This document shows, in pieces, positions 1 through 54,942 of a stretch of DNA of 64,000 nucleotides. A model generated the notes under the pieces. The model was not told the origin of the DNA, searched no databases, and saw nothing but the letters and a program-made list of their open reading frames with translations. The stretch is from a virus, in the IMG/VR virus record IMGVR_UViG_3300023202_000163, positions 1-64,000 of that record; one strand, given 5' to 3'. Positions within the stretch are counted from its first letter, which is position 1. Every line of letters starts with the position of its first letter. Both the position numbers and the translations under genes were made by a program.

Positions 1-273
1 GGGGTTAACGGCCCCCTACCGTGAGGTAAGTGACGGCAACAGAGACGAGTCATAAAAATTAGGTTCTCCAGGAGCGAGGGGGGATTAAACAGCGGCAGAA
101 ACAGCGGCCTAATTTGTATGGGTGAAACGGGCGACAGCGCAGGTGCAGCAATCGGAAGCAGAGGGCAATGATATGTGCCAAGGAGTCCTCGGGTGCCGAG
201 CAAAGAACTTGTTGGTAACAGCAAGTCAAGATAAATGATTGTCTATAACAGAATCCCGCTTATAGCCCTTCTC
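1..273 (+). ncRNA. rnpB: RNase P RNA (A-type), 5' end outside window
   Basis: This is the catalytic RNA of the ribonuclease that removes tRNA 5' leaders. The 3' part matches the bacterial A-type consensus: AGATAAATGATTGTC followed by ACAGAATCCCGCTTATAG (about 224-266) lines up with the final conserved block of E. coli RNase P RNA. CAACAGAGAC (about 37-46), GGGTGAAACGG (about 120-130) and GAGCAAAGAAC lie in the expected order, and the first 30 bases form two short hairpins like P8 and P9. The block containing GAGGAAAGTCC must lie before base 1, so roughly 80 bases are missing. The gene ends about 8 bases before a tRNA-Pro, suggesting co-transcription with its own substrates. No rnpA-like protein gene is in the window. 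Confidence 0.85.
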
Positions 274-280
274 CATACAT

Positions 281-355
281 CCGGGTGTAGCTCAGAGGCA
301 GAGCGCGCGCTTTGGGAGCGTGAGGTCGGGATTTCGATATTCCCCACCCGGACCA
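281..355 (+). tRNA. tRNA-Pro(UGG)
   Basis: The acceptor stem CCGGGTG pairs with CACCCGG, followed by an encoded ACCA. The anticodon loop TTTGGGA at 311-317 gives UGG. The D-stem GCTC/GAGC is intact; the T-stem has one weak pair. It directly follows the RNase P RNA. A second tRNA-Pro with the same anticodon lies at 1208-1281. Confidence 0.9.
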
Positions 356-992: not shown

Positions 993-1069
993 GGGCCCCT
1001 AGCTCAATAGGTTAGAGCGACGGTCTCTTAAACCGTAGGTTCTGGGTTCGATTCCCAGGGGGCTCACCA
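993..1069 (+). tRNA. tRNA-Lys(CUU)
   Basis: The acceptor GGGCCCC pairs with GGGGCTC (one G-T), with encoded ACCA. The anticodon stem ACGGT/ACCGT closes loop CTCTTAA, giving CUU. The T-arm CTGGG TTCGATT CCCAG is canonical. Confidence 0.9.
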
Positions 1070-1125
1070 CTAGTTTAGGATGTTTGTAGGAGTTAGAGTA
1101 TTATAAGATAAACTTTTAAGCATGT

Positions 1126-1201
1126 TGCTGGATAGCTCAATCGGTAGAGCACTGGTCTCTGAAACCAGGGGTTCTGGGTTCGAATCCCAGTCCGGCAACC
1201 A
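1126..1201 (+). tRNA. tRNA-Gln(CUG)
   Basis: Acceptor TGCTGGA/TCCGGCA with encoded ACCA. Anticodon stem CTGGT/ACCAG closes CTCTGAA, giving CUG. The T-arm CTGGG TTCGAAT CCCAG is canonical. A tRNA-Gln(UUG) lies at 1668-1744, so both Gln codons are covered. Confidence 0.9.
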
Positions 1202-1207
1202 TAATGA

Positions 1208-1281
1208 TTGGGCGTAGTGTAGGGGTAACACTGGTGCTTTGGGAGCATCCATCGGGAGTTCGAATCTCCCCGCCCGAACCA
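1208..1281 (+). tRNA. tRNA-Pro(UGG), second copy
   Basis: Acceptor TTGGGCG/CGCCCGA with encoded ACCA. The stem GGTGC/GCATC (one G-T) closes loop TTTGGGA, giving UGG. The T-arm GGGAG TTCGAAT CTCCC is canonical. The sequence differs widely from the tRNA-Pro at 281, so this is not a recent duplication. Confidence 0.85.
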
Positions 1282-1285
1282 GTTT

Positions 1286-1372
1286 GGACAGGTAGCAAAA
1301 TGGCTGAATGCGCCGGGCTTTTAACCCGGAGGAGAAATCCCGTTGTGGGTTCGAGTCCCACCCTGTTCACCA
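1286..1372 (+). tRNA. Class II tRNA with Lys(UUU) anticodon
   Basis: Acceptor GGACAGG/CCTGTTC, encoded ACCA, canonical T-arm GTGGG TTCGAGT CCCAC. The anticodon stem CCGGG/CCCGG is perfect and its loop CTTTTAA gives UUU, as in tRNA-Lys. The variable region between the anticodon and T stems is about 15 bases and can form a GGA/TCC stem, which belongs to the Leu/Ser/Tyr class and not to Lys. The discriminator is A, as in tRNA-Leu and tRNA-Lys, whereas the Ser tRNAs nearby have G. Charging with Lys is likeliest from the anticodon, but Leu cannot be excluded. Confidence 0.75.
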
Positions 1373-1379
1373 AATTTTA

Positions 1380-1469
1380 GGAGGAGTGGCAGATAGGAAT
1401 CGCGCACGTTTGCTAAACGTAGGCCGGGATTAAAATCCCGAGTGGGATCGTTACCCACCTCCTCCGCCA
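1380..1469 (+). tRNA. tRNA-Ser(GCU)
   Basis: Acceptor GGAGGAG/CTCCTCC, discriminator G, encoded CCA. Loop TTGCTAA closed by ACGT/ACGT gives GCU. The long variable arm (GGGATT/AATCCC type) fits serine. The T-loop is ATCGTTA, not TTCRANN: bases 54 and 58 are A and T instead of T and A. Confidence 0.85.
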
Positions 1470-1476
1470 TATACAC

Positions 1477-1562
1477 GGAAGGTACCGTACAGGGTACAAA
1501 CTGGTTTCGAACACCAGGGCACAGGTAAAACTGTGGGGGATCGTTACCTCTACCTTCCGCCA
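1477..1562 (+). tRNA. tRNA-Ser(CGA) with three-base D-loop
   Basis: Acceptor GGAAGGT/ACCTTCC, G discriminator, encoded CCA. Stem CTGGT/ACCAG closes loop TTCGAAC, giving CGA, and there is a long variable arm. The D-stem is GTAC/GTAC (1487-1490 with 1494-1497) around only AGG. The T-loop is ATCGTTA. The same design recurs at 1576 and 1849. Confidence 0.8.
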
Positions 1563-1575
1563 CGACAGGAGAAAT

Positions 1576-1661
1576 AGAGGGTACCGTGCAGGGCACAAAC
1601 TGGGTTTGAACCCCAGGGCACAGCGAGAGTTGTGGGGGATCGTTACCTCTACCCTCTGCCA
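1576..1661 (+). tRNA. tRNA-Ser(UGA) with three-base D-loop
   Basis: Acceptor AGAGGGT/ACCCTCT, G discriminator, encoded CCA. Stem CTGGG/CCCAG closes TTTGAAC, giving UGA, and there is a long variable arm. The D-stem GTGC/GCAC (1586-1589 with 1593-1596) encloses AGG. Compared with the tRNA at 1477 one D-stem pair changes from A-T to G-C, which keeps pairing. The T-loop is ATCGTTA. Confidence 0.8.
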
Positions 1662-1667
1662 GTTTTT

Positions 1668-1744
1668 TGGGGAGTAGCTCAGTTGGTTAGAGCGGTTGAC
1701 TTTGAATCAACAGGTCCTGGGTTCGAGTCCCAGCTTCCCACCCA
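1668..1744 (+). tRNA. tRNA-Gln(UUG)
   Basis: Acceptor TGGGGAG/CTTCCCA, discriminator C, encoded CCA. Stem GTTGA/TCAAC closes CTTTGAA, giving UUG. D-arm and T-arm (CTGGG TTCGAGT CCCAG) are canonical. Confidence 0.9.
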
Positions 1745-1751
1745 AAGTAAA

Positions 1752-1839
1752 GGAAGATTGCCGGAGAGGCCAAACGGGCTCGCTTGGAAAGCGATGCGGG
1801 GTAAAACCCACAGAGGTTCGAATCCTCTATCTTCCGCCA
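1752..1839 (+). tRNA. tRNA-Ser(GGA)
   Basis: Acceptor GGAAGAT/ATCTTCC, G discriminator, encoded CCA. Loop TTGGAAA gives GGA, with a long variable arm containing GGGGT/ACCC. Unlike its Ser neighbours it has a normal-sized D-loop and a canonical TTCGAAT T-loop, so it probably has a different origin. Confidence 0.9.
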
Positions 1840-1848
1840 CTTTACACG

Positions 1849-1933
1849 GGAAAGTACCGCGCAAGGCGCAAACGGGTTTCGAACATCCGGGGAGATTTAA
1901 AATCTCGGGGAGCGTTACCTCTACTTTCCGCCA
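1849..1933 (+). tRNA. tRNA-Ser(CGA), second copy, three-base D-loop
   Basis: Acceptor GGAAAGT/ACTTTCC, G discriminator, encoded CCA. Stem CGGGT/ATCCG closes TTCGAAC, giving CGA. The variable arm GAGATT/AATCTC is long. The D-stem GCGC/GCGC (1859-1862 with 1866-1869) encloses AAG. The T-loop AGCGTTA also departs from the canonical form. Confidence 0.8.
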
Positions 1934-1998
1934 TTTAGAAGCTAGACTAAAGTTTGGTTGCGTACTAGCCGAATAGACATAAATGAGAAGGAGCAAAT

Positions 1999-2088
1999 AT
2001 GTTAATCCGAGTCGCTAGCGATATTCATCCAGAGTTTGGAATGGATGATTACAATTTTATATTTCCGCCACAGGATTCAATAATCTAA
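1999..2088 (+). pseudogene. Truncated copy of the metallophosphoesterase 5' end
   Basis: Translation gives 29 residues that match the first 24 of the intact gene at 2432 with three substitutions (MLIRVASDIHPEFG here, MLIRLASDIHLEFG there), then five unrelated residues and a TAA. Its own AGGAG-like RBS remains at about 1988-1994. The second metal-binding motif and everything after it are absent, so no enzyme can be made. The copies are about 430 bases apart, with a small membrane ORF and tRNA-Trp between them. An unequal exchange or a local duplication followed by insertion would explain this. Confidence 0.85.
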
Positions 2089-2099
2089 AAAGAGGTTTT

Positions 2100-2279
2100 A
2101 TGTTGTTAATACTACGTGCTCTTCTGGCTCTTCTTACCCTATGTGGTTTCTGGATCGGAGGAGCCCAACTTGGAATACTGTTACTCGGTCCCGACAACGA
2201 TCTTATTATTCTATTTGGAAGTATAGGAATGTTCGTTGGTATAGCGGCGGCCCTTGAGATTCTCACGCCTAATGTCTAG
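2100..2279 (+). CDS. Small hydrophobic membrane protein (59 aa)
   Basis: The ATG at 2100 follows AAAAAGAGG and opens a 59-codon frame ending in TAG at 2277-2279. The product has two hydrophobic segments (about residues 2-30 and 35-56) separated by GPDND, so a two-pass inner-membrane hairpin is likely. Its stop overlaps the first bases of tRNA-Trp. No family is recognised. It begins 11 bases after the phosphoesterase fragment, so it may have arrived with the rearrangement that split that copy. Confidence 0.6.
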   Translation: MLLILRALLALLTLCGFWIGGAQLGILLLGPDNDLIILFGSIGMFVGIAAALEILTPNV

Positions 2280-2355
2280 GGGTATAGCTCAGTCTGGCCA
2301 GAGCAGCGGTCTCCAAAACCGCGTGTCGTGGGTTCGAATCCTACTGCCCCTGCCA
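2278..2355 (+). tRNA. tRNA-Trp(CCA)
   Basis: Acceptor AGGGGTA/TGCCCCT, G discriminator, encoded CCA. Stem GCGGT/ACCGC closes CTCCAAA, giving CCA. The T-arm GTGGG TTCGAAT CCTAC has one G-T pair. Confidence 0.9.
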
Positions 2356-2431: not shown

Positions 2432-3208
2432 ATGTTAATTAGACTCGCGAGCGATATTCATCTAGAGTTTGGGATGGATGACTATAATTTTATACTTCCG
2501 CCTCTTCCGGAAGATCCTGAAACAGTACTAATTCTGGCTGGAGATATACATACAGGAACTTCAGCCACTGACGAATTTTTACCTTTCATGTCGTCTCGTT
2601 TTGCTCATGTTTTTTACGTTCTAGGAAATCATGAGTTTTACGGTTTTGATTTTAATACTGTAGCTGAAGATATTCGTTATAAAATAAATGATATTGCAAA
2701 CGTTACTCTACTGGACGATGACTATTTTATCCATAATGGAGTTCGTTTTGTTGGTTCCACTTTGTGGACAGATGTTAAAAAAAGAGATCCTCTGTCTATA
2801 ATGTTGGTTAGAAAAAGTATGAACGATTATAGAGCCATCAAAAAGGCAGGTTCTAGGTTGTCTGTGTATGATACAATTGATAAACATGAAGAGTCTGTAA
2901 AGTATTTGAAAAACACTTTGAATACTCCTTTTGATGGTCCTACTGTTGTTGTAACGCACCATGGACCAAGTTATCAGAGTGCTCATTATATGTACCGTGG
3001 AAATAAAGCGGAACAGCTAAATGTAGCTTACTATTCTGATCTAGAATACTTGATGCACGAGTATAATATCTCTTATTGGTTTCACGGACACACACATTCG
3101 ACCATGAGTTACGAAATAAACGGGTGCAAAGTTCGGATGAATCCTCGTGGATACGGAGAAGATCCTGAAAATCCTGACTACGACCCCATTTTTAGGGTAG
3201 AGGTTTAG
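2432..3208 (+). CDS. Calcineurin-like metallophosphoesterase
   Basis: The 258-residue protein has the complete metal-binding set of the metallophosphoesterase superfamily in order: SDIH (8-11), GDIH (37-40), GNHEFYG (65-71), VVVTHHGP near residue 177 and WFHGHTHS near 216. Such enzymes use a two-metal centre to cleave phosphomonoesters or phosphodiesters. The substrate cannot be read from sequence. The gene is four bases upstream of a small unknown gene that abuts rtcB, so a role in trimming RNA ends before ligation is a reasonable inference, but nucleotide phosphoesterase activity is equally possible. A truncated copy of its 5' end lies at 1999-2088. Confidence 0.85.
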   Translation: MLIRLASDIHLEFGMDDYNFILPPLPEDPETVLILAGDIHTGTSATDEFLPFMSSRFAHVFYVLGNHEFYGFDFNTVAEDIRYKINDIANVTLLDDDYFIHNGVRFVGSTLWTDVKKRDPLSIMLVRKSMNDYRAIKKAGSRLSVYDTIDKHEESVKYLKNTLNTPFDGPTVVVTHHGPSYQSAHYMYRGNKAEQLNVAYYSDLEYLMHEYNISYWFHGHTHSTMSYEINGCKVRMNPRGYGEDPENPDYDPIFRVEV

Positions 3209-3620: not shown

Positions 3621-4853
3621 ATGAGTGATTATGATGTATATAAAAGCAGTAATGTCCCTATTAAGGCCTGGACAAGAGGTGTACCTGTAGAGGGTGCGGC
3701 TGTTGAACAGCTTAAAAATATAGCTTCATTGCCTTTTATACACAAACACGTAGCAGCCCTGCCGGACCTTCACCTAGGTAAAGGTGCAACTGTTGGGTCT
3801 GTTATACCTACTAAAGGAGCCATTATTCCTGCTGCTGTTGGGGTGGATTTATCGTGCGGCATGGTGGCTGTTCGCACAAGTATGTCTTCCAAAGACCTTC
3901 CGGATAGTCTTAGATCCTGGCGAACTGCGATCGAAGAGGCTGTACCTCACGGGGCGGTTAAGGGGGCATCTCACGATAAGGGCGGTTTCTTTTCAGAAGA
4001 TCTTCCAGAAATAAATCGTGAAGTGTGGGCACATAAATTAGAAGGTAAATATAAAGAAATTAACGAAAAGCATGGCAAGATTTTTCACAAAAAAGCACCT
4101 TTCCAGCTTGGAACTTTGGGGAGTGGTAATCACTTTATTGAGATCTGCTTAGATGAGAATGATCGTGTCTGGCTTATGCTACATTCTGGAAGTAGGGGTC
4201 CTGGTAACCTTATAGGACAATACTTTATAGAGCTAGCAAAAGAGGATATGAGAACCTATTTTATAAATTTACCAGATAAAGACCTTGCTTACTTCCCTGA
4301 GGGAACAAAGTATTTTGAAGACTATATTGAAGCCATAGATTGGGCCGGAGAGTTTGCCAAATATAATAGGGAACTTATGGTTTCTAGTGTATTTTCTGCT
4401 TTAAAGAAAGTAGAAGGAATACCTAAAGAAAAACTTATGGCCCAAGATATTGCAATAAATTGTCACCATAATTTTGTACAGAGAGAAAATCACTTTAAAG
4501 AAAATGTATGGGTTACAAGAAAAGGAGCTGTTTGTGCTAGAAAAGGTATGCTTGGCATAATCCCGGGCTCCATGGGGGCAAAGTCCTTCATTGTAGAAGG
4601 AAAAGGAAATCCTGAGAGCTTTGATTCCTGTAGCCACGGAGCAGGGCGCACTATGAGCAGGTCATTAGCAAAACAAGTTTTTACTTTAGACGATCATGTT
4701 AAAGCCACATCTGGAGTGGAGTGTCGAAAAGACGAAAGTGTTTTGGATGAGACTCCTGGAGCCTATAAGGACATAGATAAAGTAATGGCAGCACAATCTT
4801 CTTTGGTTGATGTAAAACATGTACTAAAACAGATTTTGTGTGTTAAGGGTTGA
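3621..4853 (+). CDS. rtcB: RtcB RNA-splicing ligase
   Basis: RtcB joins RNA ends bearing 2',3'-cyclic or 3' phosphate to 5'-OH ends, using GTP and manganese. At 410 residues it matches the length of the E. coli enzyme. Key motifs are present: GVDLSCGM (74-81, metal-binding Asp and Cys), LGSGNHFIE, LHSGSRGPGN, NCHHNF, GSMGAKSFIVEG and CSHGAGR, whose histidine is the guanylylated residue in the family. The ATG follows GAGGAATC in the end of the preceding gene. In a phage with RNase P RNA, tRNAs and a CCA enzyme, the likely role is to mend tRNAs cut by host anticodon nucleases or toxins; this is inference. Confidence 0.95.
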   Translation: MSDYDVYKSSNVPIKAWTRGVPVEGAAVEQLKNIASLPFIHKHVAALPDLHLGKGATVGSVIPTKGAIIPAAVGVDLSCGMVAVRTSMSSKDLPDSLRSWRTAIEEAVPHGAVKGASHDKGGFFSEDLPEINREVWAHKLEGKYKEINEKHGKIFHKKAPFQLGTLGSGNHFIEICLDENDRVWLMLHSGSRGPGNLIGQYFIELAKEDMRTYFINLPDKDLAYFPEGTKYFEDYIEAIDWAGEFAKYNRELMVSSVFSALKKVEGIPKEKLMAQDIAINCHHNFVQRENHFKENVWVTRKGAVCARKGMLGIIPGSMGAKSFIVEGKGNPESFDSCSHGAGRTMSRSLAKQVFTLDDHVKATSGVECRKDESVLDETPGAYKDIDKVMAAQSSLVDVKHVLKQILCVKG

Positions 4854-6154: not shown

Positions 6155-7903
6155 ATGTTTAAAAATATACTAAAACTAACCTTCTTTACAATTGTACTCA
6201 TGTCATGTTCTGGCTTTAAGTGCAACCCTGCTGAAGAATGGAATCAGGTTTTTAATAGAAACTCTTTTGTGGCGGATTCTCGGGGTTGGGTTTCTGGAGA
6301 TGCTGCTCGGTTTACGAAACTCCCTAACGGTAAATTTTTATGGGCATTCGGAGACTCCAAGGTCACTAAAATAGACGTATCGTCTAATCAAGTTATAATA
6401 CAAAACCCCCGTAGTAGGGATGGTGTTTTTGGCACTATTTTAGCTATACAGGAAAGTTCACCTATTAATTCCAGTAATATTAGATTTTTTGCGAGATTTC
6501 TTGAAACTAACGCTGTACGAGATATTACTTCCGGCTTACCTTCTCTATTTTCCCAAGATGGCGGTTCCTCCAGTTTTTTTAACGAAGCTATACTAAATAT
6601 TCCAGATATTACTCCAAATACTTCTCCGGTATTCTGGCCGCATGGATTAGCTTGCATAGATTGTGAACATAACCCACAAGTAGTACTAATGCTAAAAGAG
6701 ACTGTTTTCTGCAACCCCCAGAATAGTATATATGATTGTCGGCCCTTTTGCGTACTGTCCAATATAGACGGAAGTACAGACTCTTCAACTACCTGCACCA
6801 ATGGATTAGCTTCTTTAAGAAATGTAATTGTAAAAATATTAAATCCAAATGATGATATAAAAAATTGGCAATTTCAATCGGTGATTGTTGAACCTGTTGC
6901 TACGACCGCCTGGGGCGTTGATTTTATGGAACGGTATGGTTGGGTATATGTGTACGGAACCCAGGAGAGGCCGGGAGGGGGAGTATTCGATATGATAGTT
7001 TCCCGAACTCTTAAAGAAAACGTAATGAACCCGAATGAGTGGGAGGTCCTGACGGAAAATGGGTGGGTCAAAAAATTAGAGAACCCGACACCAAAAATAG
7101 TAGCTACCGATGTATCTACAATGTTTAGTGTGGACTCTATCGTAAGTAATAATAGAGAAAATTTCTTACTGGTACACGACAGGCCTCTTAAAACCCATTT
7201 AACTTTTGTAAGACCAAGTAATAGTCAAATAAGTTGGGAAGACACAAACGAAAAAACTCCTAGAGTTGATAAATTTTCAGCGGATCTAACATTACAAAGT
7301 TCTGTGGAGTCTGCTATAGCTGCTGGAAACTGTTCACCATTTTTAGATATTATAACAGCAAAAACCTGTGTCCCAAGTTACCATGCATCTGTCTATAAAG
7401 AATTATCAGTTCCCCAAGGCGATCAGGATATTTTATTTCCAAGTGTAAAAACCCTTCTTTTTGGTTTTATAGTACCCAGAGGACCGGCTGATGGAAGTAA
7501 TAGTGCCGATTACGATAAACCAAGATTTGGTACTATTGATATAGCTAAAGTTAAACCTTGGTGTATCATCTCACATGAAAAATGTTGGAGAGGCGTAAAT
7601 CACGTATTCCCAGCCCTAGAGTTAACTGATAGTGAGATAACGTCAATAAACTTCAATGTAGTAGACAGCGATTCTTTTGTACTGGAATCGTTTTCTGATC
7701 TCTCTACATATAATTTAAGGGGCTTTGTTGATTTTGCAGAAGAAGTTGATATAGTTTGTGAATTTGATGAAAACACAGAAAGTAGTTTTTGTTTCGTAAA
7801 TAACTTAGAAGATAATAATGTATTTACACTACAACTTAGCTCAGTAGCACCTTTAACGATTATCACATTTAGAGCTAGTTATGACGGCAACGCGGGGATT
7901 TAA
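6155..7903 (+). CDS. Large lipoprotein, possible beta-propeller
   Basis: A 582-residue protein with an N-terminal lipoprotein signal (hydrophobic 6-16, lipobox LMSCSG). The mature part contains DSRGWVSGDAARFTKLPNG followed by LWAFGDSK, reminiscent of DUF4185-like propeller proteins whose blades carry a GDG..LWLFGD pattern; that assignment is tentative. Several cysteine pairs (CIDCEHN, CRPFC) fit an oxidising compartment. No catalytic motif is recognised. It ends convergently with the endolysin gene, their stops overlapping by four bases. It could be an envelope protein that alters receptors or superinfection. Confidence 0.6.
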   Translation: MFKNILKLTFFTIVLMSCSGFKCNPAEEWNQVFNRNSFVADSRGWVSGDAARFTKLPNGKFLWAFGDSKVTKIDVSSNQVIIQNPRSRDGVFGTILAIQESSPINSSNIRFFARFLETNAVRDITSGLPSLFSQDGGSSSFFNEAILNIPDITPNTSPVFWPHGLACIDCEHNPQVVLMLKETVFCNPQNSIYDCRPFCVLSNIDGSTDSSTTCTNGLASLRNVIVKILNPNDDIKNWQFQSVIVEPVATTAWGVDFMERYGWVYVYGTQERPGGGVFDMIVSRTLKENVMNPNEWEVLTENGWVKKLENPTPKIVATDVSTMFSVDSIVSNNRENFLLVHDRPLKTHLTFVRPSNSQISWEDTNEKTPRVDKFSADLTLQSSVESAIAAGNCSPFLDIITAKTCVPSYHASVYKELSVPQGDQDILFPSVKTLLFGFIVPRGPADGSNSADYDKPRFGTIDIAKVKPWCIISHEKCWRGVNHVFPALELTDSEITSINFNVVDSDSFVLESFSDLSTYNLRGFVDFAEEVDIVCEFDENTESSFCFVNNLEDNNVFTLQLSSVAPLTIITFRASYDGNAGI

Positions 7904-8481
7904 ATTATAGAGTTTATCTCTATTAAACAGGAATGAGTTCTTCGCATCCAGCCTTTTAGGAAAACTGACATTTTAGGTTTCCTTACAACTAGATTTGCTA
8001 ATAAATCAACTCTTCTAAGAACTATATTTTGTGCTATTTTTAGATTATCTTTTTGTTCACGCACTTTACTCAAAGTAGCTGGTCCTATGAGGCCGTCTGC
8101 TTTTGCCCCCACTTCTCTTTGTAGCGCCCTGGAGGACACACTCAAACCAGAATTTACTGCGTAGTCCATAACTGCTAGGGCTATGGTAGCTGGCAACTGA
8201 TCCCCCTTGATTTTATCCCAGTACTCCTTTTTATAGATTTTTTTGGCCCCTTCTTCTGTTAAATTTCTTATATCTACATCAGGATGGGATCTTTGAGCAA
8301 TACCAAAATTAGTAAGACCTCCAGGATCCGCTTCGTGATCTACTAGACCTCCTTCCCACTGTAAAACAAATTTCATAACTTTGTCAAACTTTTCCATTTC
8401 GATGTCCTTTATTTTTTCAATTAAGATATCTTCTTTTTTTCGCAAAAATATAGACAAGACTTTGTTCAGAAAAAGTCGCAT
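7900..8481 (-). CDS. GH108 endolysin (N-acetylmuramidase)
   Basis: The protein matches glycoside hydrolase family 108 phage lysozymes, which cleave the glycan backbone of peptidoglycan at lysis. VLQWEGGLVDHEADPGGLTNFG (residues 39-60) contains the catalytic Glu43 in WEGG and the DPGG-TNFG signature. AIALAVMDYAVNSG and the following repeat with DGLIGPATL form the usual C-terminal peptidoglycan-binding part. A second possible start is Met29 (base 8397), which has a better RBS (AAAGGAC) and begins right at the domain. The upstream start lies one base after the preceding stop. The 28-residue extension has no clear signal peptide, so export needs a holin. Confidence 0.9.
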   Translation of the reverse strand: MRLFLNKVLSIFLRKKEDILIEKIKDIEMEKFDKVMKFVLQWEGGLVDHEADPGGLTNFGIAQRSHPDVDIRNLTEEGAKKIYKKEYWDKIKGDQLPATIALAVMDYAVNSGLSVSSRALQREVGAKADGLIGPATLSKVREQKDNLKIAQNIVLRRVDLLANLVVRKPKMSVFLKGWMRRTHSCLIEINSII

Positions 8482-8482
8482 C

Positions 8483-11400
8483 TTATCTAGGTTCTTGTGT
8501 GTATTCTATGGTAAGACCAGAACGGCCCACCATATCCATAACTTGTTGCCACAAATCAACAGAATTACCCTTTTCAGATCCTTTATCAAGGGCCTCTAAT
8601 TTGGGCCCGATGCTCAAAAGCCAATCTGGAGGACCGTCCACTACAACCGCCCCGTAATCCTCAAAGCGTTGGCTTCTGAGCGCTTGTATGGCCGGGGAAA
8701 CTTCTGTGAAAAGTGGGGACATCATTACTATTTTTTCTCCTGGAGCCCCATTAGGATTTACAGCTATAGCTAATTTTTGATTAGGTATTAATTGTTGGTT
8801 TTGTTTCTGTAAAATACCGTCATCACCCTTTATAGGATCTGGCGCTACTTTTCTTTCATTTCTGTGCTTAGTGTTAGGCCCTACGGCGGGTTTTCCGGAT
8901 TGACCCCAATCTGGGTTGTGGTCATGGGGAAATATAGTACCGATTCTTCTATAGTCTTCCATAGTTCGAGAAGCGCTAGCTTTATAGATATTTTCTTTAG
9001 GTGGTTTTATAGACATGAATCCTGGTTTTTTACCTGTCCGGTCCATATCCCAGTGTTCTCTGCTTTTATCATCACCATTAGGACTCCCCTTTCCTGTTTT
9101 GTTCCTTGTCATAGGCACTTCTGGATTAGGGTCTTGACCTCCTCTGCCAAAATCTGGAGAACCTTCTATAGATTCAAGTTCTGGGGCTATTTTTGGGTTC
9201 TTGGCTTTATTTGGTATGGAGTCCAAATTATGTCTTGGTTTTTTACTGTAAAATTTAGGATCTTTTCTTAAATTTTCTACAGCAGTGTCTTTATCTTCTT
9301 TGAATTCATCAAGAGCCAATTTTAACTCATGCTGGTCTACGTGAGAATCCAAATTTGATTTAAACATATTTCTTCCCGGTTCTGGGTAATTAACTACAGG
9401 CAAAAATCCAGTAGGTTTAGGCTCCCCTTGGGGTCTTACCATAGGTGCCCTGTCTAGGCCCCCACCTCCTGGATATCTTGTAAATTTTCCAGGTGAGCTT
9501 GACTCTCTGGATTCTTCAGCTTTCATGGGGGATAGATGAGGATCTTTCCCATGAACATCTAATACTTGGGGTATAGGTAGCTCCACTGCTAAAAAGCCTG
9601 CACCCTTATCCGCAGGGTAGTGTGTAGCAGGTAATTGGTCTGCTCCGGGAAATTCGTCCCGATGTTCTGGGCCAATATCTGCCGAAACAACAGGCTCATC
9701 CCACGTAAATAAATCCACAGAAGATGTACTTTCTTTTTTCAAACCATGCAAATCATAGTCTCCAGGGATACCGTCTTCTGGCGTAACCGATTGCCATTGG
9801 GGGTGATCTTTGGGTATAGGGGGAGGCCCAGAATGTTCCTGCTCCGGAGGTACAAATGGAAGAGATCCACTAAATCCATCTCTGCTACCTCTTCCCCGAG
9901 ATGGTCGCTCAGACCACTTTGTTCCCGAATTAAACCACCTAGGTTGAAATTTTAAAGATCTTTCGTGCTGTCTTTGAGGTTCGGCCTCGACTTTAGCATG
10001 GTGAGTAAGCGGACGTGCTGGTCCGAGACCTGGATGGTGTGCTTTTTCTCCTTCTGGGTCTTTCCATGCCCAGTCAAAGTGGCTTCTCCACAGGATATGG
10101 TCACTTTGATCTTCGTCAGGGTGTGTACGAAATTCACTGGGACCCTGACTACTCTTTGTGATACCCTTTTTTCGGGCGTCTCGATAGTTTCCGTCATAGC
10201 AGGTCTCTCCGGGTCTAATATGGCTATCACCACATTTATTTTTATCTTCGTTTGTCATATCTTTTCTACTCTCTAGAAAACGAGTTGCTAATTCTATAAT
10301 TTTATCCGCATCTTTTATCCCTGTTTCGTCTTCAATAGCACGAGTTAACTCTAAAAATTTACCCATCTGCGGCCCAGGTTTCATACCGCGCGCAATCAAA
10401 TCTTTTCCTGTAACAGCATCCGTAAGCTTGCTTTGTCCAGGTTCTATAAAATTTGTTACATACTCTTTATATTCTTCTAGGAATTTATCAGCTCTACTAG
10501 TATCTCGCCTTACAGCTTTTTCTGTAGTTCTTCCCAAAGTATCTGCTTTTGAGACGGCAGCCAATAGCTCCGGACTTACTTTTGCAGCATCTAAAACCCT
10601 ATTTAATCTTCTATAGCCTTTTCGGCCCGCTCTCTCTGGCATAAGTTGGGGGCGTAAGTGCGTGGCTACTAATGTGGCAACTTGTTTCGTTAGGTCATTT
10701 GGCGCTTTCATTCTTTTCATAAAAGTTACAGTGGGCTCATAACCGCCTTCTTCGTGCCCGAGTGCTCTAATCTTTCCGCCTTCTTCTACTTGTGTATTTT
10801 CCGGTTTTCCAAAATCATGAGATAATGCACCGAACATTAGCGGCATGTCAAATTCAGGATCTCCTGTTCTTTGTTTTGCCGCTTCATCAATTACCATTAA
10901 AGTGTGAACGTACACGTCACCTTCAGGATGGTGGTCAGGGTCTTGCGGAACCCCCTGTAGTTTTTCTATTTCGGGAAAATATCTTAAAAGATTAGACTGT
11001 CTAAGAACTTCTAAACCTTTTGACGGTTTTTTACCCTTTAAAAGCATTTTAGAAAATTCAGGAAATATTCTTTCTCCTGGTAATTGTTCAAGTGGTTGGG
11101 CAGCTATTAATTCTAAAGTTTTAGGCTCTACCTCAAAATCGAAACGGGCAGCAAATTGGGCTGCTCGCAAGGCGCGCAAAGGGTCTTCTCCGAAAGTATT
11201 TGGATCCGCTGCTCTTAGGATTCCGTTTCTTAAATCAGACATTCCTCCTAACGGGTCTATTATTTCCCCAGTCAGGGGGTCTTTACTCATAGCATTTATG
11301 GTTAAATCTCTTCTTCTTGCCGCCTCTTCTAGTGTCATGTTAGGGTCGGGTACTACATCAAAACCTTTATGTCCCTCTCCTTTTTTCTTTTCCCTCCTAG

Positions 11401-11662
11401 GGAGAGCTATATCCCAATCCAACTCATTTATATGTAAAACTCCAAATTGCTGTCCTACTTCCTTAACATTTCCGAAATTAGTTAAAATTTCTTTTAATTT
11501 ATCCGGCTGAAGACCAAAAACTTCAAAATCAAAATCTTTTTGCGGTAGGCCTAGTAATTCATCGCGTACTATTCCACCGACTAGATACACCTTTCCCCCG
11601 TATTTTTCTACCATTCTGGCAAAGGCTTGAACCATTGCATTATTTGCAATTGTTAAATTCAT
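8483..11662 (-). CDS. CCA-adding enzyme fused to a long disordered tail
   Basis: Residues 1 to about 465 form a complete tRNA nucleotidyltransferase with HD domain. LVGGIVRDELLG (27-38), the catalytic DFD (43-45), RRRDLTINAM (116-125) and LRALRAAQFAARF match class II CCA enzymes. HTLMVIDEAA and LSHDFGKPE (HD at 282-283) match the phosphohydrolase domain found in the E. coli type. The remaining 590 or so residues are hydrophilic, rich in Pro, Gly, His and Lys, and unlike any tRNA enzyme. They begin MTNEDKNKCGDSHIRPGETC at Met469. The final 150 residues are more ordered. The tail could be a separate fused virion or packaging protein. The ATG overlaps the stop of the upstream gene by four bases. 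Confidence 0.85.
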   Translation of the reverse strand: MNLTIANNAMVQAFARMVEKYGGKVYLVGGIVRDELLGLPQKDFDFEVFGLQPDKLKEILTNFGNVKEVGQQFGVLHINELDWDIALPRREKKKGEGHKGFDVVPDPNMTLEEAARRRDLTINAMSKDPLTGEIIDPLGGMSDLRNGILRAADPNTFGEDPLRALRAAQFAARFDFEVEPKTLELIAAQPLEQLPGERIFPEFSKMLLKGKKPSKGLEVLRQSNLLRYFPEIEKLQGVPQDPDHHPEGDVYVHTLMVIDEAAKQRTGDPEFDMPLMFGALSHDFGKPENTQVEEGGKIRALGHEEGGYEPTVTFMKRMKAPNDLTKQVATLVATHLRPQLMPERAGRKGYRRLNRVLDAAKVSPELLAAVSKADTLGRTTEKAVRRDTSRADKFLEEYKEYVTNFIEPGQSKLTDAVTGKDLIARGMKPGPQMGKFLELTRAIEDETGIKDADKIIELATRFLESRKDMTNEDKNKCGDSHIRPGETCYDGNYRDARKKGITKSSQGPSEFRTHPDEDQSDHILWRSHFDWAWKDPEGEKAHHPGLGPARPLTHHAKVEAEPQRQHERSLKFQPRWFNSGTKWSERPSRGRGSRDGFSGSLPFVPPEQEHSGPPPIPKDHPQWQSVTPEDGIPGDYDLHGLKKESTSSVDLFTWDEPVVSADIGPEHRDEFPGADQLPATHYPADKGAGFLAVELPIPQVLDVHGKDPHLSPMKAEESRESSSPGKFTRYPGGGGLDRAPMVRPQGEPKPTGFLPVVNYPEPGRNMFKSNLDSHVDQHELKLALDEFKEDKDTAVENLRKDPKFYSKKPRHNLDSIPNKAKNPKIAPELESIEGSPDFGRGGQDPNPEVPMTRNKTGKGSPNGDDKSREHWDMDRTGKKPGFMSIKPPKENIYKASASRTMEDYRRIGTIFPHDHNPDWGQSGKPAVGPNTKHRNERKVAPDPIKGDDGILQKQNQQLIPNQKLAIAVNPNGAPGEKIVMMSPLFTEVSPAIQALRSQRFEDYGAVVVDGPPDWLLSIGPKLEALDKGSEKGNSVDLWQQVMDMVGRSGLTIEYTQEPR

Positions 11663-26150: not shown

Positions 26151-29100
26151 ATGGCAGAGGAATGGTCTCCATCAAGCCTAATAAGCAAAGCATTAGCTTC
26201 CGATATGGACCCTGGTGTTTTTTCTGTTCTAAACGAAGACGATATACCCAAAGCCAAAAATTTTGCTGAATTTTGTCTAGGGAAAAAATTTCTCAATGTT
26301 GTACCCTACCCGAGACAGTTACAAATTGGTTTAGGTTTGTTCGAGGACCATTGTCCTTCTTGTACTAATCCTGATTGGGTACACGGAGAAGAGAAAACCT
26401 TAGATCTATTCGATCAGCCCATTTCAGAGATACTAGATAACGTTCAGTTTCTAGAATTCGGTAAATGCCCTAAATGTGGCTCTAATAGGAATGACTTTGT
26501 AAAAAAAGGTTACTTTCATAACCCAACGGAGTTAGCGGCCTGTTGCGGGCAGAGGTGTGTGACCGGGGAAACACTCGTCTTAACGGATAGGGGATTGGCA
26601 AGGATAGACGAATTTGTTAATAAAGCCCTGCCGAAACTTTCTGATCGCTCTGGTAATTTGCAAGAAACTACTAAATTTTTTAATGTTGCTCCCGAATATA
26701 CCTATAGGGTTAATTTTTCTAATGGTACTTATATTGAAGGGACAAAAGATCATCCAATACTAACTAATAGAGGTTTTGTAAAACTTTCTGATATTAAACA
26801 AGGAGACGAGATACCTATTAGTTTTGGTCAAAATATCTGGGGAAACAAAATAGCTTCTTATGACGACATTCATATCACCTTTGAAAAAGAATTTGAAGAA
26901 TGGAGAATGAAAACTAATTTTTGGAAAGTTAAAAACCACGATATTCCTAGAGGAAAACTTTCTCTAGAAGATGCTATGTTTTTAGGTTATTGGGTTTCTG
27001 AAGGAAGTGCTGGAGCTGTCATAACTAATAAAAACCCTAAAATACGAGACTTATGCATCAAAGTTTTAAATAGTTGGTTCTCTACGGATTTATACTATCA
27101 TAATTTGTCTTTTGGTTTGCGCACAGAGAAAGCAAAATTATGGATGAGCACGTTATTAGGTTACGCCTCAACGGGAACAAGTGTAGATAAAAAAATTCCA
27201 GCAGTAATTAAACAAGCTCCTAGAGAATATGTAATTGCTTTTTTATCTGCGTTATATGATGGAGACGGGAACGTCGGTAAATCTATTGACTATGACACTA
27301 TTTCTCCTACTTTGGCTATGGAAATCTTTTCTTTATTATCCAACCTTGGAATACCCTCAAAGATATATACTTCTTATAAATCCGCCACTAATGGAACAAA
27401 TAACCAGATACCGGTTCTCTCCTATAGAGTTGTAATAGAAGGACCTGCTGTACAGAAATTTCAAGAAATTATTGGTTTCAACATAGATTATAAAATAGAG
27501 AAAACAAAAAAACTAATAGAGGCTCATAATAATAAAAAGCTAAATATGCCTTATTGGTATGAAAAAGCCCCCTTTTCAAAGAAGCTTGAATTTATAAAGT
27601 TGGTTAAAAAAATTCAGAAATGTTTGCATGAAAATGTTCAACCTTTATCCCATAAAGCAAGAGTTTTTGGACTTCGGAGTGCATTGGGTAGGAAAGGTGT
27701 TGATCTATTTAAAAGGATGAAGGCGGAAAATGTAGCTTTGTCTAAAACTAAGATAAAAGATATATTGTATCCTCTATTGCGTTATAAATATGCATTTACT
27801 GAAGATATTATTAAAGAAATTGAGGATTTCTTGGCATACGCCGAATCTAATGACGCTTATGCGACAGTAAAGTCTATAGTAAAAAGTGACAGCCAAAAAC
27901 CCACTTATGATTTCCATGTTCCTGGAAAACATGAATTCTGGAGTAACGGAGTAACTTCTCACAATAGCGGAAAAAGCGCCGTAACCGCTATGATCGCTGC
28001 TTATGTGTTACATCGCTACTTGTCTATACCCGATCCTATTAATTACCTTAGTTTGCTTTCCTCATCTCAACTTTATATGAGTATGACTGCTATTTCCGCT
28101 GGTCAGGCGGAGGCCTCTTTATGGGCCCCTTTTCGAGAATATGTAGACGCAGCACCCTGGTTTAAAGATTATCATCAATTGTTGCAAGATGCAGGAGAAA
28201 GATTAGGGACAGAACTTTTACATAGACCTAGAACGTTTTTGGTCTATAAACATAAAAGAATTGTTTGCATGTACGAAGCGCCCAACAAAAGACGCCTCCG
28301 TGGTAAGACTAGAATTTTTTGTGTATCTGGAGATACGCAAGTAACAACTAATTTAGGTAGTTTCAGAATAGAAGATTTATTTGCTCCTGTTCAATCTAAC
28401 TTGGATCGTATCGATAAAGTAAAAGATTTAACAGTAGCCTCTCCCGCTGGTTTCGAGAAAGCTACACATTTACTCCAGTATAAAAATGTTCCTGGAGTAA
28501 AAATAGAAGGCGAAGATGGAACACAGCTAACAGGAACACCTGTACATCCTGTTTATATCTACAACCCTATAAATGGTTTTGAGATGAAAAAACTAGGAGA
28601 TATAAGGCCAGACTTAGATTATCTTGTATTACAGCCCCCAAAATACGATGCGTTCCCTACCGAAATACCTTTATTTAATTATAAATATAACCGAAACAGA
28701 GGAGGCGGGGAAAGGTCTCCGGCCCAGTTAGACGTTATGGATAGTAGAACGCATTCTATCTTCCCTTCCATGCTAACAACAGAATTAGCAGAGCTTATGG
28801 GTTTTTTGTGGGCGGAGGGCTCCCTTACAAAAAATTACAGAAAAAATAGAAAATGTTATACATATAGATTGAGATTTACGTCCAGTGATGTGTATTGCAT
28901 TGAAAGATATAAAAAATTATTCCTTTCTTGCTTCGGTGTGGAACCTAAATTCGCTAAAGCTGCTGGAGAATCTTGGAATTTAGATAATCAAAGTGCCTCT
29001 ATATGTCAATTTATGAATTATCTAGGGTACGAATATGAAGGTTGTCGTGTCAAAGATGTCCCCTGGCCCATACGAAAAGCCCCTAAAGAGATGGCTGTAG

Positions 29101-30983
29101 CCTTCTTACGAAGCTTTTTTGATGGGGATGGTATGGCGACCGCTACACAAGTAAGTTGCGACCTAAGTGCCCCTAAACTAGCAGAAGGGATTAAATTACT
29201 TCTATTCAACTTAGGAATTTTGTCTAGAATTTGCAGATACACAAGAAAAGGAAAAAATTACTACAAAGTAAGCATGTATGGTAAAAATAGAATGCTCTTC
29301 TTTGAAAAAATAGGTTTTGGTCTAGAAAGAAAACATAAATTTTCTGAGATAATTACATCTGAATATTCTTCTAAAAACGAGATGTTACCTATCGATGTAA
29401 CTAATTTAAGTAATAGTATAGAAAATAAAAACAAACGTATATGGAAAACTTGGAAAAATGAAAAAATAGAATTACCGGCAGGGTGTCTGGTAGAAATGCA
29501 TACATTAATGAGAGCTGTTGATGATAGATTTGATGAGCCTGAAAAAAGAATGAAAACAGTTAACCCCAGAAAATTATCCTCTGATTTTATGAAAAATTTA
29601 AAATGTATTGATGAAAAATTATATGATATTTTGGAGAAAGCCAGGGATGGTTTGTATTTTTCTAAAGTTAAATCTAAAAAAGACGTTGGTAATATTAACG
29701 TATACGATTTTACTATTCAACCCTCTCATTTATTTATGGCTAACGGGTTGGTCAATGGAAATTCAAGCGTCGATGAATTGGGCTGGCTAGAGGCAGACGC
29801 TTCCAAACAATCTGTTACTTTGTCCGCAGACGAAATTTCTGCTGCTTTGGATAATTCTCTCCGTACTGTAAGAAGTGCTGCACAATTAAAAAGAAAACAA
29901 GGTCTTTATAATTCTGTAGATGCTTACGCATGTAATATATCAAGTCCTTCAGAAAAAGACGATAAAATGATGCGCAATGTACGAGCTGCCCGCACTAATA
30001 GAAATATATACGCTTGTCATTATCCTACGTGGGAAGCCAATCCGACAATTACAAGGGAGAGTTTACAATCAGAATTTGACAAAAGTAGGATGGTAGCCGA
30101 GAGAGATTTTGGGGCTGTTCCTCCTCTGGCCAACGATCCTTTTATCGATAATCCAAACTGTATAGATTTAATGATAGATCCAAAACATGCTCATAATTTG
30201 ATACAGGTTAAAATAAATTACCACACAGACGACTTCGGTAATAAAACTAAATACGCTTCCGTTAATATTCCTCAAATAGACAAGAGAAAACCTAGAATGT
30301 TATTAGTAGACGCGGGAGAAAAAAGAAATCATTTCGCTGTAATGCTTATGACGTGGGATTCTCAAAGAAACCGACCAAGAGTAGATTACGTTTTCGATGT
30401 ATCGCCAGAAGAGGGCATTCCCATAAATTTTGCCTTGATGTGGGAGCACTGTTTTCAGCCTCTTATTAGGGGATTACTAATAAAGCACATGTTTTCCGAT
30501 ACTTGGAACTCCACTGACCTAGTACAGAATTTAAGACAAGCTAAAGTTATGTCCGAGCAGTATTCTCTAAAATTTCAAGATTTTGTGGAAATAGCCTCCA
30601 GACTTTCTTCTGGCGAGCTTATATTACCCAAACCAGAGCTTCCTGTGGAGGATCTTAGACTTACGTATGAAAACCCAATAGAATTTGTCCAAGGAAAACC
30701 TATATTAACATTAATTCTACAGATGTTAACCGTAAGGCAAGTAGGTAGAAGAATTACTAAACCTATTAATGGAGAGGATGATATGTTTAGGGCGTTGTGT
30801 CTGGGAATGTATCATATAGTCCAGCCTCAATATAAAAAATTGTACGCTGTTGATGCAGCCGGAGGCGCGGGAGGAAATCTTGGGGTTATTTTATCAAAGA
30901 GCGCAGGATCTGCTGGGTTAGATGGTAGAAAAACTACCCCAGGGGCTAGAATTGCTACAAAAAGAGGCTACAGGGCCAGATAG
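26151..30983 (+). CDS. terL: Terminase large subunit with two inteins
   Basis: The 1610-residue precursor yields a 659-residue packaging motor, a normal size for TerL. Joining the exteins restores CCGQR|SGKSAVTAMIA, the Walker A loop, and RIF|SSVDELGWLE, which carries the Walker B acidic pair. An N-terminal zinc ribbon (CPSC at 68-71, CPKC at 106-109) precedes the ATPase. The nuclease domain includes MLLVDAGEKRNHFAVMLM and a GEDDMFRALCLGMYH segment with likely metal-binding Asp residues. TerL translocates DNA into the prohead and cuts it. Because both inteins lie at ATPase motifs, packaging activity depends on splicing. Confidence 0.95.
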   Translation: MAEEWSPSSLISKALASDMDPGVFSVLNEDDIPKAKNFAEFCLGKKFLNVVPYPRQLQIGLGLFEDHCPSCTNPDWVHGEEKTLDLFDQPISEILDNVQFLEFGKCPKCGSNRNDFVKKGYFHNPTELAACCGQRCVTGETLVLTDRGLARIDEFVNKALPKLSDRSGNLQETTKFFNVAPEYTYRVNFSNGTYIEGTKDHPILTNRGFVKLSDIKQGDEIPISFGQNIWGNKIASYDDIHITFEKEFEEWRMKTNFWKVKNHDIPRGKLSLEDAMFLGYWVSEGSAGAVITNKNPKIRDLCIKVLNSWFSTDLYYHNLSFGLRTEKAKLWMSTLLGYASTGTSVDKKIPAVIKQAPREYVIAFLSALYDGDGNVGKSIDYDTISPTLAMEIFSLLSNLGIPSKIYTSYKSATNGTNNQIPVLSYRVVIEGPAVQKFQEIIGFNIDYKIEKTKKLIEAHNNKKLNMPYWYEKAPFSKKLEFIKLVKKIQKCLHENVQPLSHKARVFGLRSALGRKGVDLFKRMKAENVALSKTKIKDILYPLLRYKYAFTEDIIKEIEDFLAYAESNDAYATVKSIVKSDSQKPTYDFHVPGKHEFWSNGVTSHNSGKSAVTAMIAAYVLHRYLSIPDPINYLSLLSSSQLYMSMTAISAGQAEASLWAPFREYVDAAPWFKDYHQLLQDAGERLGTELLHRPRTFLVYKHKRIVCMYEAPNKRRLRGKTRIFCVSGDTQVTTNLGSFRIEDLFAPVQSNLDRIDKVKDLTVASPAGFEKATHLLQYKNVPGVKIEGEDGTQLTGTPVHPVYIYNPINGFEMKKLGDIRPDLDYLVLQPPKYDAFPTEIPLFNYKYNRNRGGGERSPAQLDVMDSRTHSIFPSMLTTELAELMGFLWAEGSLTKNYRKNRKCYTYRLRFTSSDVYCIERYKKLFLSCFGVEPKFAKAAGESWNLDNQSASICQFMNYLGYEYEGCRVKDVPWPIRKAPKEMAVAFLRSFFDGDGMATATQVSCDLSAPKLAEGIKLLLFNLGILSRICRYTRKGKNYYKVSMYGKNRMLFFEKIGFGLERKHKFSEIITSEYSSKNEMLPIDVTNLSNSIENKNKRIWKTWKNEKIELPAGCLVEMHTLMRAVDDRFDEPEKRMKTVNPRKLSSDFMKNLKCIDEKLYDILEKARDGLYFSKVKSKKDVGNINVYDFTIQPSHLFMANGLVNGNSSVDELGWLEADASKQSVTLSADEISAALDNSLRTVRSAAQLKRKQGLYNSVDAYACNISSPSEKDDKMMRNVRAARTNRNIYACHYPTWEANPTITRESLQSEFDKSRMVAERDFGAVPPLANDPFIDNPNCIDLMIDPKHAHNLIQVKINYHTDDFGNKTKYASVNIPQIDKRKPRMLLVDAGEKRNHFAVMLMTWDSQRNRPRVDYVFDVSPEEGIPINFALMWEHCFQPLIRGLLIKHMFSDTWNSTDLVQNLRQAKVMSEQYSLKFQDFVEIASRLSSGELILPKPELPVEDLRLTYENPIEFVQGKPILTLILQMLTVRQVGRRITKPINGEDDMFRALCLGMYHIVQPQYKKLYAVDAAGGAGGNLGVILSKSAGSAGLDGRKTTPGARIATKRGYRAR
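26556..27965 (+). mobile_element. LAGLIDADG intein 3 in TerL Walker A (470 aa)
   Basis: Residues 136-605. Block A is CVTGETLVLTDRGLARI, block B is GTKDHPILTNRG, and the end is FWSNGVTSHN before Ser606. LAGLIDADG helices are AMFLGYWVSEGSAG and VIAFLSALYDGDGNVG. The insertion is between GQR and SGKS of the P-loop. Junction codons are TGT at 26556-26558 and AAT at 27963-27965. Confidence 0.95.
28320..29762 (+). mobile_element. LAGLIDADG intein 4 in TerL near Walker B (481 aa)
   Basis: Residues 724-1204. Block A is CVSGDTQVTTNLGSFRI, block B is LTGTPVHPVYIY. The end is LFMANGLVNGN before Ser1205, with Gly instead of the usual His before the terminal Asn. LAGLIDADG helices are LAELMGFLWAEGSL and AVAFLRSFFDGDGMA. 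Junction codons are TGT at 28320-28322 and AAT at 29760-29762. Confidence 0.93.
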
Positions 30984-44674: not shown

Positions 44675-45811
44675 ATGGCTAAGAATCCTTATTTAGCACG
44701 TCCGGCTTATGTCGGTCGTAATGGGGACGCCCTAACCGACGGCGGCGCTCGGGCTGGTCGGCGTAATCCGCGTTCCGGCACCATGATTCAGTCTTCTACT
44801 GAGTCACTAGTTGCAGGTAACGGTGAATTAAATGCCGGCTCTAAGCGTGAGCTTATGCAGGCAATTGCGTCTCTACAGAACATGGTACAGGCTGGCGATG
44901 TACGCAGAGCCACCCCACAGGAGCAGTACGGTGATATCGTACAGGCTCGTAGAGAACTTGTAGAAGCAGCTTACGCTGATAAAAACGGCGAGGGTTGGCA
45001 AGTTCTAGGTGAAGTAATCGGTGAAGAAATCTGGGAAACCTTAGGACGTGAAGGTTTCGCTCGGAAGACCCTTCTTATCAAGCCTCTGGGCAAAGGTGAG
45101 ACTGGTCGTCTGCGCGTTCGACGTAAGGATGTTATCTCGTTCTTCGTAACGAGTGACCCTAACGTGATTGCGTCTCAGGTTCGCCAGTTCTACATCTACC
45201 CACCCGAGTTCTATCTGATTGCGCACATCACGCTTGAGGACAAAGAAATCGAGCAGGCTTCCGGAGACCTTCTGGACGACAAGTACCAGGACGGACTTGA
45301 GCAGATCATGGTTCGTGAGGACAACGTATGGCGTAATCTAATTAACGCTGCTGCGGGTGCTTCTAACGACTTGTTCCTGTTCAACACCTTTACACCGACT
45401 GTGTTCTCTACCATGAGAACGCAGATTGCTCGGTGGGGTATTCCGGTAACCGGTGCAATCATTGCATTCGATCTCTGGGACGACATCATTGCTGACACCG
45501 AGTTCAGCACTTGGTTCGACCCGGTATCCAAGCACGAGCTTGTTCTTGAAGGCTCTCTTGGTAACATCCTTGGTGTTAACCTCATCACGGACGCTTTCCG
45601 ACACGATACCTTGCAGGTTCTACAGCCCGGCGAAGTTTACTTCGTAGGTGCTCCGCAGACCCTTGGTGGTATCACTCAGCGGAAAGAGCTAGCTACCGAG
45701 TCCATCAACAAGTACAATCAGGGTAAACCTGAGCGTGGTTGGTTCATGGAAACCATCGAGGGCATGTCAATTGTGAACTCAAGAGCTGTCACAAGGGGCA
45801 ATAGAGTCTAA
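44675..45811 (+). CDS. Major capsid protein (HK97-type fold likely)
   Basis: The 378-residue protein follows a strong RBS (AGAGGAGA). N-terminal 60 residues are basic and Gly/Ser rich. A helical segment (GELNAGSKRELMQAIASLQN) leads into the core: EEIWETLGREGFARKTLLIK, DKEIEQASGDLLDDKYQDGL, and a P-domain-like strand set with GNILGVNLITDAFRHDTLQV. Codon use is strongly biased to GC-ending codons compared with the AT-rich neighbours, as expected of the most abundant virion protein. It is flanked on both sides by related hairpins. Position after protease and scaffold supports the call. Confidence 0.8.
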   Translation: MAKNPYLARPAYVGRNGDALTDGGARAGRRNPRSGTMIQSSTESLVAGNGELNAGSKRELMQAIASLQNMVQAGDVRRATPQEQYGDIVQARRELVEAAYADKNGEGWQVLGEVIGEEIWETLGREGFARKTLLIKPLGKGETGRLRVRRKDVISFFVTSDPNVIASQVRQFYIYPPEFYLIAHITLEDKEIEQASGDLLDDKYQDGLEQIMVREDNVWRNLINAAAGASNDLFLFNTFTPTVFSTMRTQIARWGIPVTGAIIAFDLWDDIIADTEFSTWFDPVSKHELVLEGSLGNILGVNLITDAFRHDTLQVLQPGEVYFVGAPQTLGGITQRKELATESINKYNQGKPERGWFMETIEGMSIVNSRAVTRGNRV

Positions 45812-47793: not shown

Positions 47794-48981
<1,188 letters not shown>

Positions 48982-49084
48982 TAGAGTATAAACAGAACCA
49001 ATGCTTATGTTTATTATAGTGAATGCGAGCCCTGCCGCTTGATAGCAGAGGCGCATTAGAATATAACGCTCAATGCGAGACTAG

Positions 49085-54942
<5,858 letters not shown>

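Follow-up and report, generated by a model that had tools for sequence, protein, structure and literature searches.

A phage-encoded RNase P RNA located in a tRNA block and conserved in related phages

The tRNA cluster of bacteriophage T4 is processed by the RNase P of its host (PMC11143913, PMC9697503), and the translation genes of huge phages include large tRNA sets, a CCA-adding enzyme and tRNA ligation (Al-Shayeb et al. 2020, PMC7162821). The main text of that survey leaves RNase P unmentioned, and the Rfam RNAs of two megaphages of ~0.5 Mb are tRNAs and one tmRNA only (Lui et al. 2021, PMC8172020). In cells the RNA subunit of RNase P is near-universal and its presence serves to check assembled cellular genomes (PMC8172020); in the candidate phyla radiation it lacks P13/P14 and gives low covariance scores (PMC8172020).

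The locus described here opens the window, a stretch of 64,000 nucleotides (positions 1 to 64,000 of the IMG/VR record IMGVR_UViG_3300023202_000163), and holds the 3' portion of a class A RNase P RNA gene. The RNA resembles that of bacteria (RF00010, E. coli M1 RNA) in CR-II to CR-V, with CR-I seen in relatives, and in P4, P15 with its GGU and P18; it differs in being phage-encoded within a tRNA block, with no rnpA and no P13/P14 and, in the window and one relative (G077), with an insert in P12. Like T4, the phage carries close-spaced tRNAs that need RNase P, but T4 relies on the host RNA and its genome has no RF00010 match. The window shares with the huge phages a large tRNA set, a CCA-adding enzyme and tRNA ligation. 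With the candidate phyla radiation RNAs it shares the missing P13/P14 and the low covariance score; those are, however, cellular genes, and about two thirds of them are without the UGG/GGU motif that the window RNA retains. What appears new is an RNase P RNA that is viral, is embedded among tRNAs and comes without the gene for its protein.

Identity of the RNA and of its genome

A cmscan of positions 1-400 matched RF00010 (RNaseP_bact_a) with 87.0 bits (E = 3.7e-27), so that the sequence-only reading, which had recognised a 3' conserved block and internal segments in their proper order, is borne out by a significant covariance match in whose alignment CR-II, CR-III, L15 GGGU, P18, CR-IV and CR-V with the 3' strand of P4 are legible in that order (Table 1). 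The match is flagged as 5'-truncated, the contig edge having removed the 5' part, and its score lies below the RF00010 gathering score of 100 bits, a cut-off that three relatives exceed. Because the part lying off the contig costs score, a full-window Rfam scan at the gathering score listed tRNAs alone and no RF00010; a covariance search of the entire record gave 56.4 bits (E = 3.9e-18) with a second piece at 1-30. The cmscan alignment deletes 43 model positions where P13/P14 would lie, which is no defining loss, these helices being optional in bacteria. By predicted structure the window RNA falls among ordinary RNase P RNAs of class A, every tested feature being present except the optional P13/P14. 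The record, of 78,116 b, does not carry the 5' part of rnpB at its right end; circular closure was thus rejected, and the record is linear and incomplete.

The genome, read from the letters alone as phage-type, is that of a tailed phage, with genes for the large subunit of terminase, for a major head protein and for tail fibres. The proposed position of the RNA ahead of a tRNA-Pro and a tRNA array also holds: tRNA-Pro(TGG) begins 2 nt past the point where the modelled RNase P RNA ends, and a further ten tRNAs bring the array to 2355, with a spacing in the 993-1839 cluster of mostly 4-13 nt.

Table 1. Features of the window, with position, strand and basis of assignment
Feature	Position	Strand	Basis
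RNase P RNA class A (rnpB), 3' part, model 74-367	1..278	+	cmscan; full-length homologues G027, G077, G079; four-way alignment
P8 and P9 stem-loops, GGGGUUAACGGCCCC and CCUACCGUGAGGUAAG	1..30	+	cmscan alignment; pair counts
CR-II, ACAGAGA	39..45	+	cmscan alignment
P12 bearing ~55-nt insert; arms CAUAAAAAUUAGG / CCUAAUUUGUAUG pair	50..120	+	four-way alignment, fold, flank comparison
CR-III, GGGUGAAAC	120..128	+	cmscan alignment
L15 GGGU	191..194	+	cmscan alignment; role from established knowledge
P18 hairpin	206..227	+	pair counts
CR-IV and P2 3' strand, AGAUAAAUGAUUGUC	229..243	+	cmscan alignment
CR-V, ACAGAAUCCCGCUUA; 254-261 is the P4 3' strand	248..262	+	cmscan alignment; P4 pairing in relatives
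tRNA-Pro(TGG), CCA encoded	281..355	+	ARAGORN; Rfam tRNA
tRNA cluster Lys, Gln, Pro, Lys, Ser, Ser, Ser, Gln, Ser (993-1839), Trp (2278-2355)	993..2355	+	ARAGORN
Metallophosphoesterase; order shared with G027	2432..3208	+	Pfam PF00149, phrog_1649; G027 ORF
RtcB RNA ligase; also in G027, G077, G079	3621..4853	+	Pfam PF01139, E = 5e-124
CCA-adding tRNA nucleotidyltransferase (N-terminal part of 1059-aa protein)	8483..11662	-	phrog_2244, E = 4.5e-88; PF01743, PF12627
Terminase large subunit, 1610-aa frame	26151..30983	+	phrog_17415, E = 6e-176 in three stretches; translation
Major capsid (major head) protein	44675..45811	+	phrog_2522, E = 1.1e-63; 92-95% identical in G027, G077, G079

Several further features of the genome were observed. 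The terminase frame and the next large, portal-like protein (31328-36106) each apparently carry two intein-like insertions, Pfam intein domains match the proteins at 14173-17055 and 19003-21246, and a group I intron (RF00028, 75.3 bits) lies between tail-region ORFs near the right end of the record (76785-77055). Long collagen-like repeat proteins of the GATGPTGxTG type with tail-fibre family matches occur at 47794-50794 and toward the right end of the record (1145 aa; local coordinates 9271-12708), and a 325-aa protein (36110-37087) has an iron/manganese superoxide dismutase C-terminal domain. An endolysin-like protein at 7900-8481 combines GH108 and PG_binding_3, which suggests a Gram-negative host.

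Given that the RNA sits at the extreme edge of the record, it is conceivable that a bacterial rnpB was joined to a phage contig during assembly, the refutation that the sequence-only reading had itself named. Relatives were located in IMG/VR via the major capsid protein of the window. Three records, G027 (266,640 b), G077 (210,369 b) and G079 (184,111 b), have capsid proteins 92-95% identical to that of the window and carry full-length RNase P RNAs scoring 149.4, 155.4 and 147.8 bits respectively against RF00010; in all three, tRNAs surround the RNA and RtcB is nearby, and in G027 the order RNase P RNA, tRNAs, metallophosphoesterase and RtcB is that of the window. An assembly chimera is vanishingly improbable for two reasons: first, these related records, which come from other metagenomes, hold the RNA internally, 5-22 kb from an end. 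Second, a tRNA of the phage block starts 2 nt downstream of the window RNA. For the family as a whole, a chimeric edge is excluded by the three relatives. Three further capsid relatives (28, 21 and 93 kb; short or distant) gave no RNA match, fragments of this kind carrying weak information. Within the four-phage family the P12 insert of ~55 nt (window 50-110) is shared by the window with G077 only and is absent from G027 and G079. Its arms pair through different bases in the two phages and its core, GGGATTAAACAGCGGCAGAAACAGCGGCC, is identical; the idea that the insert is a mobile element was rejected, the 21-base core recurring elsewhere only in an unrelated repeat.

Conservation of the fold and kinship of the phage RNAs

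Pairing was scored in a four-way alignment of the window, G027, G077 and G079 on the Rfam structure, to which P4, the active-site helix, was added separately since the Rfam pairing leaves it out. Over the whole alignment pairing is kept in 95.9% of pair cells, and both sides have changed in 13 of the 77 pairs, figures that flatter the structure to the extent that the four sequences are related and the structure was derived partly from one of them. None of 500 shuffles reached either the pairing or the number of double changes, and when the partner was slid by 1-3 columns pairing fell to ~40% and double changes to 0-1. Thirteen double changes among four sequences, against 0-1 in the slid alignments, is strong evidence, and together with the 95.9% of cells that pair and the shuffles it indicates that the RNase P RNA fold is under selection. 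P18 alone accounts for changes on both sides in five of its eight pairs.

The window holds only the 3' strand of P4, and both CR-I and the 5' strand are known from the relatives; P4 is invariant within this family. The proposed check on CR-I and P4 thus succeeds in part: all three close relatives have CR-I (GAGGAAAGTCGGGAC in G027 and G079, GAAGAAAGTCGGGAC in G077) and a paired P4, and in the window CR-I lies beyond the edge. CR-I with an intact P4 helix and its bulged U is present in the three relatives and, in all, in 40 of the 45 scorable phage RNAs (50 records tried, a few identical sequences being counted twice), where the loci had been chosen by a pattern on one P4 strand, so that the opposite strand is the independent side of the test. 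Two P4 pairs show compensatory change among the 45: pair 71:356 is G-C in 33 and C-G in 12, and pair 74:353 is G-C in 23, A-U in 19 and unpaired in 3. The remaining five RNAs carry one or two mismatches. G105 and G096 share one RNase P RNA in which the P4 3' strand, CCACTCTT, has two mismatches; the copy may have been damaged or interrupted, or CR-V may have been misplaced by the search expression. At 71:356 the phage relatives have G-C where E. coli has C-G, a flip that also occurs in bacteria, among them Bacteroidales and Acidimicrobiia; it was rejected as a phage-specific mark because a majority of the 116 bacterial loci searched share it.

In blastn comparisons the window RNA gave 185-269 bits against its three phage relatives, 100 against G096/G105 and 62 against the best sampled bacterial RNA, and in a FastTree analysis of the sequence alignment it fell within an all-phage clade of 17 (support 0.989). 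Limited as it is by the shortness of the RNA, bias in the bacterial sampling and the use of midpoint rooting, the tree shows kinship among phage RNAs and not the number of acquisitions. These comparisons bear on the possibility that the RNA is a passenger of no use to the phage, acquired from a host rnpB through recombination at tRNA genes. tRNA genes are common recombination sites, which would favour such a capture. Nevertheless, we hold it to be highly improbable, given that divergent copies preserve the fold through paired changes, that the window RNA belongs to the all-phage clade and that it lies much nearer its phage relatives than any bacterial RNA sampled.

Distribution, tRNA adjacency and the protein subunit

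IMG/VR was scanned with CR-V and CR-I patterns, and the records were then searched with the covariance model; the scans do not amount to a census but gave many carriers. The analysis took in 51 records including the window, up to 463 kb in length and with 45 distinct RNA sequences; since six pairs of records have identical RNAs, the number of records does not give the number of independent events. Capsid or terminase genes were matched on 13 of the 51, comprising capsid matches in the window (G000), G027, G077 and G079 and terminase (TerL) matches in G012, G019, G059, G085, G099, G101, G107, G109 and G118; the phage status of the others is given by the IMG/VR classification and tRNA context, which makes the total provisional. 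Tail-sheath PF04984 was dropped as a phage marker, its matches being weak and sub-threshold. Eight short records (L005, L006, L016, L017, L021, L024, L025 and L027) were omitted as probable prophage host flanks: their near-identical RNAs, of 327-334 bits and within ~150 bases of a contig end, are probably host rnpB beside prophages of one bacterial group. One phage contig, G054 (202,737 b), has 63 tRNAs and a tmRNA in 19 kb, and its RNase P RNA lies mid-array, followed after 2 nt by a tRNA-Leu.

The rarity that had been supposed for such RNAs in phages agrees with the isolates and not with the metagenomes: a covariance search with RF00010 found no match in ten isolate phages (BcepSauron, GR11A, Peetri, JA29, G, Atu_ph07, phiKZ, RaK2, T4 and Byblos), and about fifty IMG/VR records carry the RNA. 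All matches of five of the phage RNAs in a blastn search of a phage collection were to seemingly bacterial assemblies or faecal contigs, or were due to chance. Microcystis phage MaAM05 (MW495066.1, 273,876 b) was rejected as a carrier, since its rnpB stands beside fabI, engB and mtgA and looks bacterial. Among CC-licensed papers no phage-encoded RNase P RNA was found; its occurrence in many huge-phage contigs is provisionally regarded as unreported in the openly licensed literature.

A tRNA lies within 10 nt of 20 of the 45 distinct phage RNAs and of none of 65 bacterial controls, and the mean number of tRNAs within 3 kb on either side is 9.8 against 0.08, the controls being mostly loci with one CR-I variant and not a random sample. 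The nearest tRNA neighbour is always on the same strand as the phage RNA, and in some records tRNAs abut both sides, at distances of 0 and -1 nt in G040, 0 and 1 in G034, and 6 and 6 in both G006 and G042. Between genes packed so tightly a separate promoter or terminator for the RNA would not fit, and the RNA is therefore likely to be excised from the tRNA transcript. In the window, with 2 nt between the modelled end and the tRNA, cleavage at this neighbour would form the 3' end of the RNA. Release by a neighbouring tRNA cannot be general, however, since the distance to the next tRNA runs to hundreds of bases in some phages; G027 and G079 have their first downstream tRNA at ~450 nt, and other nucleases must act there.

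The protein subunit RnpA (PF00825) is absent from all 26 phage records tested, some of which may be incomplete, and the same search was positive in 10 control genomes. This uniform absence points to a reliance on host RnpA. RnpA from one bacterial species is able to work with the RNase P RNA of another.

Proposed role during infection

From sequence, we infer that the RNA is expressed, binds host RnpA, is catalytic and is released from the tRNA transcript. Transcribed inside the phage tRNA block, the class A RNA would bind host RnpA in the infected cell to give a hybrid RNase P, which would remove the 5' leaders of the close-packed phage tRNAs and probably of host tRNAs too, so that the supply of tRNA would stay high while host transcription declines; the cut at the adjoining tRNA would also create the 3' end of the RNase P RNA itself. 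That the phage RNA acts with host RnpA on the phage's own tRNA precursors, and is freed from the same transcript, is in our judgement probable. The covariance match, the three full-length homologues and the gene order common to the window and G027 argue for this reading, as does a fold kept under selection through 13 double changes in 77 pairs that no shuffle equalled. The L15 GGGU motif pairs with the tRNA 3' CCA in bacterial RNase P; its retention in the window RNA, where the phage tRNAs encode CCA, is a further argument, and a CCA-adding enzyme and RtcB are also phage-encoded. The close tRNAs of 20 phage RNAs against none in the controls, the P4 helix paired in 40 of 45 with compensatory change at 71:356 and 74:353, and the want of RnpA in 26 records, which would make the host protein the partner, point in the same direction. 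Of the two purposes that the sequence-only reading had offered, maturation of the phage's own tRNAs thus appears the best supported; the other, a steering of the host protein subunit, would agree with the absence of RnpA from the 26 records.

Given that there is no phage RnpA, any product of the locus must engage the host protein, and seizing host tRNA processing is a plausible aim; it follows that the RNA could be a decoy that ties up host RnpA and halts or slows host RNase P with no processing of tRNAs. This is unlikely for two reasons: first, a decoy has no need of an active site, yet P4 with its compensatory changes, CR-V and the L15 GGGU have been retained. Second, the RNA lies inside a phage tRNA block that itself requires RNase P. 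Slightly less probable again is a phage enzyme whose substrates have shifted, for example to phage or host mRNAs, with tRNA processing as a by-product. The specificity domain does vary, with P13/P14 missing and, in the window and G077, an insert in P12. P13/P14 are nevertheless lacking in many bacterial RNase P RNAs as well (PMC8172020), and the close adjacency of tRNAs points to tRNAs as substrates.

Processing of the phage's own tRNAs with host RnpA is accordingly the reading that we prefer. Beyond it we suggest, tentatively and a little short of calling it likely, that these RNAs may form an old and widespread lineage of huge-phage RNase P RNAs which resides in tRNA transcripts, frees itself via cleavage at neighbouring tRNAs and takes over host RnpA, controlling tRNA maturation during infection. 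The presence of RNase P RNA in phages weakens rnpB as a marker of a bacterial contig and provides natural RNAs for probing how one RNA subunit works with foreign RnpA. It offers an opportunity to test whether the ends of an RNase P RNA can arise from the processing of neighbouring tRNAs, and it widens the viral repertoire to include the RNA catalyst of tRNA maturation.
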